Part shown: positions 6,907 to 62,479 of the stretch, piece by piece | How positions within the stretch are numbered: position 1 is the first letter of the stretch | Layout of the letters: the number at the start of each line of letters is the position of its first letter | NCBI GenBank assembly: GCA_029262275.1 | Contig: JAJCZS010000007.1 | Span: forward strand, 308,785-372,784 | Reading direction: 5' to 3' | From: Deltaproteobacteria bacterium | GTDB lineage: Bacteria > Desulfobacterota_D > UBA1144 > Nemesobacterales > UBA2774 | DNA length: 64,000 nt | Position numbers and translations under genes: made by a program | The notes under the pieces: model-generated | Database searches by the model: none | What the model was told of the DNA's origin: nothing | Seen by the model: only the letters and a program-made list of their open reading frames with translations

Positions 6907-7752
6907 ATGAAAAATACGAAATTTAAAGGTACAGATAATTATATTTCGACTAGGGATCTTAACCTAGCAGTAAACGCTTCCATAACCTTGGAACGACCTC
7001 TTATAATTAAAGGCGAGCCTGGAACTGGTAAGACTATGCTTGCGTTCGAAGTGGCCGAGGCTCTTGGCAAAGAAATTATCACTTGGCATGTAAAGTCCTC
7101 TACCACAGCCCAGCAGGGGCTCTACGAATATGATGCAGTCTCTAGGTTACGTGATTCACAGCTCGGGGATGACAGGGTGAGTGATATTGCAAATTACATT
7201 GAAAAAGGGAAATTATGGGAGGCCTTTGAATCTAAGAAACAGGTTGTACTCCTAATAGACGAAATCGACAAGGCTGACATTGAGTTTCCTAATGACTTGC
7301 TTCTCGAGTTAGATAAAATGGAGTTCTACTGCTACGAGCTTCAAAAAACCATAAAGGCAAAACACCGTCCAATCATTATAATCACTTCCAACAACGAAAA
7401 AGAGCTGCCCGACGCATTTTTGAGAAGATGCTTCTTTCATTACATAAGTTTTCCTGAACGTGAGACGCTTAAATCAATTGTAAAGGTTCATTATCCTAAG
7501 CTCGAGACCAAACTTATTAATAACGCAATGAATATTTTCTATGACCTTAGAGAGATTGATGGTCTTAAGAAAAAGCCTTCAACTAGTGAGTTAATAGACT
7601 GGATTAAGCTGCTAATGGTTGGCAAAATCACCGAGTCTGAGCTGGCTGACTTGGATCTGTCTGAAAAACTTCCCCCATACGCCGGAGCACTTCTTAAAAA
7701 CGAGCAGGACCACAATCTACTTAATCGCATCAGACTTAGATTTAGAAGGTAA
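6907..7752 (+). CDS. MoxR-family AAA+ ATPase (pair 1)
   Basis: MoxR ATPases work with VWA-domain partners as chaperones that insert metals or activate enzymes. The 281-residue protein has Walker A GEPGTGKT (36-43), Walker B LLIDEIDKAD (115-124), sensor 1 IIITSNNEKELP and an arginine-finger region DAFLRRCFFHYI. GGAG lies about 7 bases before the ATG. The VWA partner follows after 34 bases, which is the classic pairing. The CoxD/CoxE carbon monoxide dehydrogenase system is the closest named analogy, but no CODH subunit is in the window, so the client is unknown. Confidence 0.93.
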   Translation: MKNTKFKGTDNYISTRDLNLAVNASITLERPLIIKGEPGTGKTMLAFEVAEALGKEIITWHVKSSTTAQQGLYEYDAVSRLRDSQLGDDRVSDIANYIEKGKLWEAFESKKQVVLLIDEIDKADIEFPNDLLLELDKMEFYCYELQKTIKAKHRPIIIITSNNEKELPDAFLRRCFFHYISFPERETLKSIVKVHYPKLETKLINNAMNIFYDLREIDGLKKKPSTSELIDWIKLLMVGKITESELADLDLSEKLPPYAGALLKNEQDHNLLNRIRLRFRR

Positions 7753-7786: not shown

Positions 7787-8992
7787 ATGTTCTTAGATTT
7801 TTTCTTACTACTAAAAAATGATGGTATTCCGGTGACAATCCGTGAGTATCTCACATTCCTAGAGGCGCTGGATAAAGATGTTGCCCAATACAGCGTGGAT
7901 GACTTCTACTATTTAAGTCGCACGTCGTTAATCAAGCGTGAACATCATTTAGATAGATTCGATATGCTATTTGGCTATTACTTTGAGGGTATAGAACAGA
8001 TAGATCTAGAGGATTTTATGAAAATACCTGAGGAGTGGCTTAAGAAGAGTTTTAACGCTCAATTTACTGAAGAAGATAAGGCTATGATTAAGGCTATGGG
8101 CGGGCTTGATAAACTGCTCGAGCGCTTAAAGGAGCTCATGGAAACACAGAAGAAAAGGCACGAGGGCGGTAGCAAGTGGATTGGCACAGGTGGGAGATCT
8201 CCTTTTGGTTCAGGTGGTTATAACCCCGAGGGAATTAGAATGGGACCGCACGAAGGAGTGGGCAGCAGAAGAGCTGTAAAGGTATGGGATAAGAGGGAAT
8301 ATAAAGATTTGGACGATGGAGTTGAGCTTGAGACCAGAAATATGAAGATGGCACTCAGGCGCCTACGCATATTAACCCGTGAGGGAACAAAAGAAGAGCT
8401 GGACCTGGACCAGACGATTGATAAGACATCCAGAAACGCAGGCCTTTTAGAGCTTGAGATGGTTGCAGCAAAGAAAAACAATATAAAAGTGCTGCTTCTT
8501 TTAGATATCGGAGGCTCGATGGACGACCACATAGAGCTTTGCTCAAGATTATTCTCAGCAGCCAAATACGAATTCAAACATCTAGAGCACTACTATTTTC
8601 ATAACTGTCTCTATGAGTCGGTCTGGAGAGATAATAAAAGAAGAAAACAGGAAGCAGTTCCAACATTTGAAATACTGCATAAATACAACAGTGACTACAA
8701 GGTAATTATTGTTGGAGATGCGTCGATGTCTCCTTATGAGATTCTTTATCCAAACGGAAGTATTGAGCATAGTAACGATGAGGCGGGCATGATTTGGCTT
8801 GAGCGCCTTAAAGAGCAGTTCCCTGATATTGTATGGCTAAACCCTATGCCATATGAGGAGTGGAGATACACAGAATCCATTGGAATCATCAGGGAGTTTA
8901 CAGGTGACCGCATGTTCCCACTCACAATGGGCGGTCTGCAGCAGGCAATCAAAGCACTTAAAGATAAAAAGATAAAGTATGAAGGCCACTGA
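7787..8992 (+). CDS. VWA-domain protein, CoxE-like (COG3825-type), partner of MoxR pair 1
   Basis: A 401-residue cytoplasmic protein. The N-terminal half is helical and includes a Gly-rich stretch (about 127-150). The C-terminal von Willebrand A domain begins near residue 230. The MIDAS motif reads D240-I-G-G-S244-M-D, so the first Ser of the canonical DxSxS is Gly; I recall this variant in the COG3825 group. It probably forms a client-activating complex with the MoxR ATPase encoded just upstream. Substrate unknown. The VOC gene starts 6 bases after its stop, suggesting one operon. Confidence 0.88.
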   Translation: MFLDFFLLLKNDGIPVTIREYLTFLEALDKDVAQYSVDDFYYLSRTSLIKREHHLDRFDMLFGYYFEGIEQIDLEDFMKIPEEWLKKSFNAQFTEEDKAMIKAMGGLDKLLERLKELMETQKKRHEGGSKWIGTGGRSPFGSGGYNPEGIRMGPHEGVGSRRAVKVWDKREYKDLDDGVELETRNMKMALRRLRILTREGTKEELDLDQTIDKTSRNAGLLELEMVAAKKNNIKVLLLLDIGGSMDDHIELCSRLFSAAKYEFKHLEHYYFHNCLYESVWRDNKRRKQEAVPTFEILHKYNSDYKVIIVGDASMSPYEILYPNGSIEHSNDEAGMIWLERLKEQFPDIVWLNPMPYEEWRYTESIGIIREFTGDRMFPLTMGGLQQAIKALKDKKIKYEGH

Positions 8993-60350: not shown

Positions 60351-61325
60351 CTAGGCAAATACTTCGCTGAATGGATCTACACTCGTTCCTTCTGATACAT
60401 GCTTAGGAATTTTTCTGTCTTCTCTTTCTATTCTGATAAGTCCGTTCTTTCTTCGAGTAGCGATAAACTGAGTGCCGCTAGTTTCTCTTGAAATTCTCTC
60501 TAAAATCCTCGGGTAGTTCTTAGAGCCTATGAATATTGAGTGGATACATACTCCTAGTTTCTTGGCGCGCAACCTCTCACTTATGACATCACAGTCTCCC
60601 GAGGTGGGAATACCGTCTGTAATAAAAAGTATATGCTTATTTCTGAGCCCTCTTCCTCTAAACTCGCCAAGTGCGTCTTTGAGAGCGTCTTCATAGTTCG
60701 TGTTTCCTGAGCATTCAGTTTTAGAAGCAAGATCCAGCATCCAGGTGTAGTCTCTTGTAAAGAATTGCGCATTCCTTTTATATTTGTAAGAGCGGTGATT
60801 AAATTCAACGTAGCCTACTCTCATTCTCTTAGATCTAGCAAGCTCCACAACACCCCTTACAACAGATGAAGACCATTCGCTGTATACTCCCATCATAGAA
60901 GTACTAACATCTCTTAGGATTGCTATTTCTCCACCCATCATTTCTTTCTCTCTTTTGTGGACGCGGGGTAGAGTAGGGGTTGTATTTTCTGTCCAGATCA
61001 TTGCTTCAAATGGATCTATATCTTCGATTTCATCGAAGTGTTTCATTCTCTTCCATGTTCTGGGCATCCCTCCGGGGTGGGGTGCTCTAAGAGCCATACT
61101 TTTTTGGAAGTTGCCTTCCAGTACTTTCATTATAATTCTTACGTTATCAGCAGTATCGGTATTTTTCTTTCCTCCTACCCAGTAGTCATCTTCGTCTCCG
61201 GGATCAGGGGATTTACTTGCAAATACCTTGTTTGATTCAGGGGCATCTCTATCTTCATCTCCCCCGTCATCACTAAGCTGGCCCTCAGGATCAGATGGTA
61301 TATCCATATCATCTGGCGGGGCCAT
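60351..61325 (-). CDS. VWA-domain protein (pair 2), probably the C-terminal part of a frameshift fusion with MoxR
   Basis: A 324-residue segment with an acidic start (PPDDMDIPSDPEGQ) and a von Willebrand A domain whose MIDAS is intact (D139-V-S-T-S143). The ATG at 61325 has no good ribosome site. In the same frame, 72 further codons upstream are open, rich in Glu, Asp and Gln, contain no ATG, GTG or TTG, and run back into the A11 tract at the end of the MoxR gene. Such acidic linkers are typical of VWA partners and of ChlD. It is therefore likely made as a MoxR-linker-VWA fusion of 709 residues. Confidence 0.88.
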   Translation of the reverse strand: MAPPDDMDIPSDPEGQLSDDGGDEDRDAPESNKVFASKSPDPGDEDDYWVGGKKNTDTADNVRIIMKVLEGNFQKSMALRAPHPGGMPRTWKRMKHFDEIEDIDPFEAMIWTENTTPTLPRVHKREKEMMGGEIAILRDVSTSMMGVYSEWSSSVVRGVVELARSKRMRVGYVEFNHRSYKYKRNAQFFTRDYTWMLDLASKTECSGNTNYEDALKDALGEFRGRGLRNKHILFITDGIPTSGDCDVISERLRAKKLGVCIHSIFIGSKNYPRILERISRETSGTQFIATRRKNGLIRIEREDRKIPKHVSEGTSVDPFSEVFA

Positions 61326-61516
61326 TTGGTTCTCTTTTTCTATATTATCTTTGAGTTCTTTAAGTGCTTGAAAAAAGGTTTTTCTAGCTTCGGAAAGTTC
61401 GTCTTCATTGTCGGATTCCTTCTCCCCATCTTCATCAGGAACCTCTCCGTGATCATTTTCATCCTCAGCCTGAGTATCTTGTTCAAACTCCGGCTGTTGT
61501 TCTTCTTCTTGTCTTT

Positions 61517-62479
61517 CTAGCTCACTCTGTCTGTCCCTGTCTTTTTTTTTTTGGACGTCAGATCATCAATAATTTGATCTAGCTGCTGGAATACTTCCTC
61601 AGGAACTCTGAAAGCAGACATATATTTTAGAGCGTTTAGATCTTCAGTTGTGCAACTTTCTCTGTCATGTAGAAGAGCATGTGCACGCATTATCTTAAGC
61701 GCTTTAACAAAGAAGGTTCTGTCTGATATAAGTGAATTACTTTCATTACAGCCATAGTCCTCAATTAGTGTTGCAACGAAGTTGGCCAGTGCTTCTTGCA
61801 CAACCAAAGGTATATCAACACTGCTTAATTTCTCATAATATTCGTCAAATACTTCTCTGCTTACCCTTGCAGGAACCTCGTATTCGCTAGGCCTCTCACT
61901 GTATAGCTTTATTACTTGTTTTGCTTGGTCCCACTTCCTTCCATAAGAGAGTCCCTGAGAGTTTATCTGGAGGACAAACCTATCTAAGTTTGCAGGGTCA
62001 AGAGGTTCGTTGTAATACTCATCAGCTGTTGGGTTACTTGTTGCAATTGCAGTTAGCAGAGGAATGCCTTCGTCAAAGAATTTCCTTTCGTTAAGAATTC
62101 TTAGAAGTACGTTAAGTGATTCTCCAGGTGCTCTTGAGATATCATCGAGCAGGCAAATCTCAGAAGTTAATATTCCACCCTTTACAACTTCTTGTTTTAT
62201 TATTTCACCGGTATCGGTAGCTTCTTTTGAAATTACAAGATCACCTATTAATTCTGATAGTCTTGTGTCTCTATGGAGCTGATAGAAAAAGAACCGCAGG
62301 CTTGCTGCAGCTGAGACTATTTCTGACAACATAGTTTTAGCTGTTCCTGGAGGCCCCTCTACATATATATGTTCTCTGGAAATAATACCTAGAAGTAGAG
62401 CGTACTTTACTTCCTCATGCCCTACCACTAAATTATCCATTTCTTCTTTAAGAACTACGAATGGATTTTGTGTTGTCAT
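61517..62479 (-). CDS. MoxR-family AAA+ ATPase (pair 2), with -1 slippery site at its end
   Basis: A 320-residue AAA+ ATPase with Walker A GPPGTAKT (42-49), Walker B EICLLDDISRAPG and sensor 1 LTAIATSNPTADEYYN. It belongs with the VWA protein encoded just downstream as a metal- or enzyme-activating chaperone; the client is unknown. The last codons include K310-K313 read from AAA AAA AAA AAG, an A11 tract (61542-61552) holding the heptamer A AAA AAG known from dnaX. A -1 shift there joins it to the VWA frame; without it translation stops seven codons later at TAG 61517. Confidence 0.93.
   Translation of the reverse strand: MTTQNPFVVLKEEMDNLVVGHEEVKYALLLGIISREHIYVEGPPGTAKTMLSEIVSAAASLRFFFYQLHRDTRLSELIGDLVISKEATDTGEIIKQEVVKGGILTSEICLLDDISRAPGESLNVLLRILNERKFFDEGIPLLTAIATSNPTADEYYNEPLDPANLDRFVLQINSQGLSYGRKWDQAKQVIKLYSERPSEYEVPARVSREVFDEYYEKLSSVDIPLVVQEALANFVATLIEDYGCNESNSLISDRTFFVKALKIMRAHALLHDRESCTTEDLNALKYMSAFRVPEEVFQQLDQIIDDLTSKKKKTGTDRVS
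61541..61552 (-). promoter_or_regulatory. Putative -1 frameshift or slippage site (A11 containing A AAA AAG)
   Basis: On the reverse strand the run of eleven A followed by G reads, in MoxR frame, AAA AAA AAA AAG. Slipping back one base turns the last codons into AAA AAA followed by GAC AGG, which enters the open VWA frame. No ribosome-site stimulator within 15 bases upstream and no clear hairpin downstream was found, so RNA-polymerase slippage on the A tract is an equal alternative, as is a miscounted homopolymer. Confidence 0.6.

Follow-up and report, generated by a model that had tools for sequence, protein, structure and literature searches.

A MoxR-type ATPase frame and a VWA frame meet at an A11 tract

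The window, the whole stretch of 64,000 nucleotides that was analysed, carries on its reverse strand a MoxR-type AAA+ ATPase frame followed by a VWA frame (Table 1). Both the host, with a genome of 2,475,536 bases, and the gene family belong to Candidatus Dadabacteria. The ATPase frame ends 3' in ACG TCC AAA AAA AAA AAG ACA GGG ACA GAC AGA GTG AGC TAG. On rereading, the layout proved to be as the earlier note had described it, with a MoxR frame that passes through the A tract to the TAG at 61517 and a −1 frame, beginning with the codon GAC at 61541, that stays open for exactly 72 codons without a stop, ATG, GTG or TTG until the ATG at 61325. The free ATPase would comprise about 320 residues, and the predicted MoxR-VWA fusion about 709.

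Table 1. Features of the MoxR-VWA locus, in window coordinates.
Feature	Positions	Strand	Basis
MoxR-type AAA+ ATPase ORF, 320 codons + TAG (short product)	61517..62479	-	ORF call, Pfam, profile match
Walker A motif GPPGTAKT	62333..62356	-	Translation; near-invariant in MoxR alignment
A11 slip site (predicted)	61542..61552	-	Tract kept in relatives
MoxR stop TAG, inside VWA-frame codon pair CTA/GAA	61517..61519	-	Stop comparison
Acidic linker in VWA frame, 72 codons, no start codon	61326..61541	-	pN/pS; class-wide alignment
Conserved linker helix LSEARKTFFQALKELKDNI, upstream of apparent VWA ATG	61341..61397	-	Alignment; helix in AlphaFold model, residues 44-72
VWA part as ordinary ORF, 324 aa, C-terminal part of predicted fusion	60351..61325	-	Pfam VWA/VWA_3/VWA_CoxE-like
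MIDAS motif DVSTS	60897..60911	-	Invariant or near-invariant in alignment

The ATPase frame matched the Pfam models bpMoxR (4e-20), AAA_5, AAA_3 and AAA_lid_8; its AAA core with Walker A/B motifs and its MoxR lid are those of the MoxR AAA+ family, and a MoxR profile search against the PDB led to 2R44 and RavA, not to ChlI. The Mg_chelatase model (PF01078) reached 19.5 bits against a cut-off of 20.3, and the MoxR models were far stronger. The architecture of magnesium chelatase ChlD/BchD, to which the earlier note had likened the fusion, is therefore shared in its domain order, whereas the AAA+ part is of MoxR/RavA type. The VWA part, with its VWA fold (Pfam) and MIDAS motif, has the features of the VWA proteins that partner MoxR ATPases. 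A second MoxR and CoxE-like VWA pair on the forward strand of the window (6907-7752 and 7787-8992) is ordinary, as had been noted, with a 34-base gap and no comparable poly-A run; its VWA protein was too dissimilar to be matched by the present VWA query at a threshold of 1e-3.

Profile search detected the locus in all but three of the 58 genomes of the Dadabacterial class (55). The neighbours mltG and/or proB (convergent) adjoin it in examined members from family f1 to f8, which shows vertical inheritance; these two neighbours gave no hint at a client of the MoxR-VWA protein. When 387 genomes were searched by profile, orthologues came to light in three other phylum-level groups as well (G151, G289 and G388; G366, G228 and G081; and G089), and no relative of the locus was found in the viral contigs searched. 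One of these outgroup genomes, G151, additionally encodes a divergent fused MoxR-VWA paralogue (L119; C1:1542500-1546500), which lies some 19 kb away from the gene with the tract and has no A run at its junction. In one further genome (G042; L048/L093), the VWA part contains several frame changes and stops next to an A9 tract, the mark of a pseudogene or else of errors in a long-read consensus.

Conservation of the tract and variation of the genomic frame

The earlier note had asked whether the A tract is conserved among homologues, and such conservation was found throughout. A9, A10 or A11 is present at the junction in 46 of 46 Dadabacterial copies in which MoxR and VWA are both intact, a result repeated on independently fetched records, and A10 or A11 occupies the same place in all seven outgroup orthologues, in genes of 53-62% GC. 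A homopolymer of at least nine A/T thus persists across homologues, as in genes with transcriptional slippage. A sequencing error within a plain A12 fusion is ruled out by the genus-wide occurrence of A11, with the same −1 offset, in all six sampled species of the window's genus with the locus, and by the out-of-frame layout of OX638332 (L077), which is a closed chromosome, and of AG-470-J09 (L086), which comes from a single cell. As a general cause, sequencing error is excluded by the presence of that layout in 35 independently assembled genomes.

Runs of this length are rare in the genomes concerned. The genome of the window has no A11/T11 besides the tract, and no second A10/T10 occurs in 11 further Dadabacterial genomes or in G151, G289, G388 and G228 (3.6-6 Mb). 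With residues and codon usage held fixed, the expectation for the 28 genus representatives was 8.2 with a run of at least nine A, and all 28 have one; relatives share ancestry and are not independent samples, so that product probabilities for the tract overstate its significance. Synonymous identity is complete within the tract and ordinary just upstream. Among relatives the run begins in codon phase 0, 1 or 2, its A's being supplied by Lys codons or by Gln CAA, Asn AAT, Ser TCA or Arg CGA codons. Because the run occurs in all three phases and is built from such varied codons, the constraint acts on nucleotides rather than on lysines. Frame 0 across the tract does encode KK(K) in every copy, and AAA runs cause ribosome pausing (PMC4363877), both of which would suit a run kept for a lysine-rich peptide or for pausing, with no second product. 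This explanation is scarcely credible, as the two tract lysine codons are AAA in 45 of 45 copies as against 31-84% at other conserved lysine columns, and the residues of the tract differ (QKKN, SKKK, RKKK, DKKK or KKKK) while the run stays.

The genomic frame of the VWA part relative to MoxR is variable. It is −1 in f1, f3, f6, f7, most of f8 and one f5 genome, and 0, giving a fused gene, in eight Dadabacterial copies, comprising seven from f4 (all f4 genomes) and that of f2. The outgroup orthologues are all fused, with a single open frame across the junction in 7 of 7, although the G089 sequence ends at a contig end. A +1 offset with an A9 tract occurs in two single genomes (G047, L040; G019, L047); these two may be homopolymer length errors, and a slip of one or two A's would still yield both products from them. 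Mapped on trees, the frame has changed at least four times within Dadabacteria, and five times when the outgroups are included.

A translated linker and conserved out-of-frame stops

The pN/pS ratios between relatives were 0.107 for the linker (22 pairs) and, not far below, 0.071 for MoxR and 0.054 for VWA. By this measure, purifying selection acts on the linker as a sequence translated in the VWA frame. The linker helix LSEARKTFFQALKELK is present in the alignment across the class. In f3 and several f8 members the linker has no start codon at all, and no ribosome site precedes the ATG at 61325; since the linker is nonetheless conserved, it must be reached through the tract. Two ordinary genes, with VWA beginning at its own ATG at 61325 through coupling or internal initiation, would correspond to the natural ORF call, and the ATG does occupy the same place in most f1, f6 and f7 copies. 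That arrangement is highly improbable given the purifying selection and conserved helix in the 72 codons upstream of the ATG, the start-free linkers, the lack of a ribosome site and the many relatives that are fused; a separate VWA start was accordingly rejected.

Termination signals for a short product are also retained. Wherever the gene is split, the stop of MoxR lies on the same VWA-frame Leu/Ile/Val codon (NTA/G, CTA/A or CTG/A, with the slash at the codon boundary). The codon is CTA, TTA, ATA, GTA or CTG, and it is kept even where NTA makes up only 5-9% of Leu codons. Relatives, including fused ones, keep an out-of-frame stop at the site homologous to the TAG at 61519-61517, and fused copies have a stop within 15 codons in both shifted frames in 13 of 13 cases, as compared to 4.5 expected from synonymous resampling. 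Nearby stops in both other frames are likewise a feature of dnaX of the Thermus type. The conserved out-of-frame stops argue further against retention of the run for its peptide or for pausing, as does the split state of most copies, in which the tract must be crossed for the conserved linker to be translated.

Taken with the translated linker, this pattern supports the earlier note's proposal that one locus yields free MoxR and a MoxR-acidic linker-VWA protein by way of the A run; as read from sequence, one gene very probably gives both the free ATPase and the ATPase-VWA fusion, whichever frame its DNA encodes. Some relatives do contain the single fused frame that the note had raised as an alternative state of the gene. 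They do not refute the dual-product idea, because they keep both the tract and the out-of-frame stops. Selection keeps the putative slip site and the predicted short product, not the genomic frame, as judged from tracts and stops that are kept while the frame varies and from a linker that is translated.

A tract that merely rescues frame lesions, the fusion being the sole functional product, would resemble the poly-A genes of Blochmannia and Buchnera, and poly-A rescue of such lesions is documented (Wernegreen 2010, as cited in PMC3711429). The fused state of the outgroups, f4 and f2 means that fusion may be ancestral, which would fit such a rescue. Rescue as the whole explanation is nevertheless very unlikely: fused lineages need no rescue yet retain A9-A11, even at 60-62% GC, along with stops in both other frames, and long A runs are otherwise few in the genomes that carry the tract.

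Slippage at the tract and its possible role in subunit stoichiometry

The reading favored here, with a probability of roughly three in four, is a dual-product gene with a selected slip site, at which mainly RNA polymerase slippage would give both free MoxR and MoxR-VWA. The A9-A11 run at the border of MoxR and linker would be the slip site, where RNA polymerase, most likely, adds or drops A's and ribosomes perhaps slide on the same A's. A share of the transcripts, or of the translation events, would be read onward through the acidic, helical linker into VWA to form the fusion; the remainder would stop a few codons past the tract and release free MoxR. Because slippage would feed every frame, the frame encoded would matter little, and the tract and nearby out-of-frame stops could stay while the genomic frame shifted several times. 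The sequences themselves show a conserved tract, a translated linker, stops retained in the shifted frames and both fused and split states, and from there we infer slippage itself, its mainly transcriptional nature and its purpose of setting a ratio.

A more specific shift had been suggested by the earlier note, namely a dnaX-type −1 frameshift at A AAA AAG. That heptamer is present; as the definition of the site it is too narrow, its phase being absent in several families, as in AAA AAA AAA AGC, and what is conserved is a run of nine or more A in any codon phase with an offset of −1, 0 or +1. In an E. coli dnaX-type programmed ribosomal shift, uniform messages would yield the fusion by tandem tRNA-Lys slippage at A_AAA_AAG. 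Consistent with this, the heptamer stands in the correct phase in the window gene and f8, and the −1 split of most Dadabacteria fits, as would the production of long and short AAA+ forms. Against it, A_AAA_AAG in the 0 frame is found in f1 and f8 and not in f2, f3, f4, f6 or f7; the shortest run in every copy is nine, not seven; phases and offsets differ; and fused genes also keep a +1-frame stop, for which a −1 ribosomal shift has no need. The stimulators of E. coli dnaX, an upstream Shine-Dalgarno-like element and a downstream stem-loop, are not conserved in the window family: upstream, synonymous conservation is limited to the tract, no Shine-Dalgarno-like element or properly spaced hairpin is conserved nearby, and downstream folds have mean z-scores of −0.7 to −0.8. 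Such a shift is accordingly an unlikely account of the locus.

RNA polymerase slippage in the style of Thermus dnaX is favored over E. coli-type ribosomal −1 frameshifting because the run is always at least nine, phase and frame are indifferent, conserved stimulators are lacking and the design is that of Thermus dnaX. In Thermus thermophilus, transcriptional slippage at an A9 run in dnaX gives about 50% full-length product, both other frames stopping at once (PMC5009743). As predicted for the window family, long and short AAA+ forms come from one gene with a run of at least nine A; like the fused relatives, Thermus encodes the long form as one uninterrupted ORF, and stops close the other two frames. 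The gene is, however, a different one, and in most Dadabacteria it is the short form that the genomic frame encodes. Translation may contribute a share at the tract: ribosomes slide on A11 (PMC4363877), and poly-A runs of 11, 9 and 7 gave 63, 40 and 10% frameshift product in E. coli reporters of Mg-chelatase fs-genes of like layout (PMC3711429). At A10-A11, sequence does not separate ribosome sliding from polymerase slippage. A pattern search for lysine tRNAs matched Lys-UUU and no Lys-CUU in the window's genome, and Lys-CUU in some relatives. A hairpin downstream of the tract occurs in f6/f7 members only; in the f6 sponge symbionts (L027-L031, L050 and L051) it is CCGGATCAG-ATGC-CTGATTCGG, about 20 nt after the tract and with strong z-scores, which is farther away than frameshift stimulators usually lie.

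Among known systems the closest is fs-chlD, the "magnesium chelatase" fs-genes in which an AAA+ domain is followed by VWA through a poly-A slip site (Antonov 2013, PMC3711429; Kuznetsov 2022, PMC9227772). The window gene shares with them the order of AAA+, acidic linker and VWA with a poly-A junction, small AAA+ and AAA+-VWA subunits (predicted in its case), and the existence of fused homologues. In contrast to fs-chlD, its AAA+ part is of MoxR/RavA type with AAA_lid_8 rather than ChlI type, no downstream RNA structure of the kind described at fs-chlD sites is conserved, and the tract persists whether the frame is −1, 0 or +1. In the limited literature searched, slippage was reported neither for MoxR-VWA genes nor for Dadabacteria; the slippage gene family proposed here, which is unusual in that the tract and hidden stops outlast changes of genomic frame, would be new. 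That the same solution recurs in fs-chlD and at the MoxR-VWA locus suggests convergent use of slippage in AAA+/VWA machines.

In NorQ-NorD, CbbQ-CbbO and RavA-ViaA, MoxR-type and VWA proteins also cooperate, with a MIDAS VWA and the AAA+ partner in excess. A NorQ hexamer carries one NorD, 6:1 (PMC9976466), and cells contain 350 RavA as compared to 90 ViaA, about 4:1 (PMC3893208). Those partners are separate genes, whereas in the window family VWA would be fused to a MoxR copy and free AAA+ supplied by slippage. By analogy, slippage probably sets the ratio of MoxR to MoxR-VWA for mixed AAA+ hexamers: a VWA on every subunit would crowd the MoxR ring, and the free MoxR from slippage would act as a diluent. 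An evenly poised extension of this reading is a frame-indifferent slippage device, in which the run and out-of-frame stops are selected, the frame drifts among three states, the share of subunits in a MoxR ring that bear VWA is set, and the whole predates the split of Dadabacteria from three other phylum-level lineages.

If this is correct, a core cellular gene of uncultured phyla contains a programmed slippage site that is deeply conserved, and slipperiness together with stop layout, rather than the encoded frame, can be a unit of selection. It would also bear on how MoxR-VWA complexes fix unequal stoichiometry. Gene callers would either split the locus into "MoxR" and "VWA", losing the 72-residue linker, or call a plain fusion, and each annotation would miss one product. 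The family offers a natural series of A9, A10 and A11 in combination with −1, 0 and +1 for measuring the effect of slippage on AAA+ subunit ratios.

The mixed-hexamer assembly is drawn by analogy because the structure models are poor: AlphaFold returned a pLDDT of 38 for the fused protein and 56 for linker plus VWA, showing only the VWA fold and the linker helix. The low-confidence VWA model matches VWA folds, including that of NorD in NorQD complexes. Within the VWA part, the f5 sequences (L046 and L047) have about 40 extra residues inserted behind the TSGD motif, seen in the alignment in f5 only.
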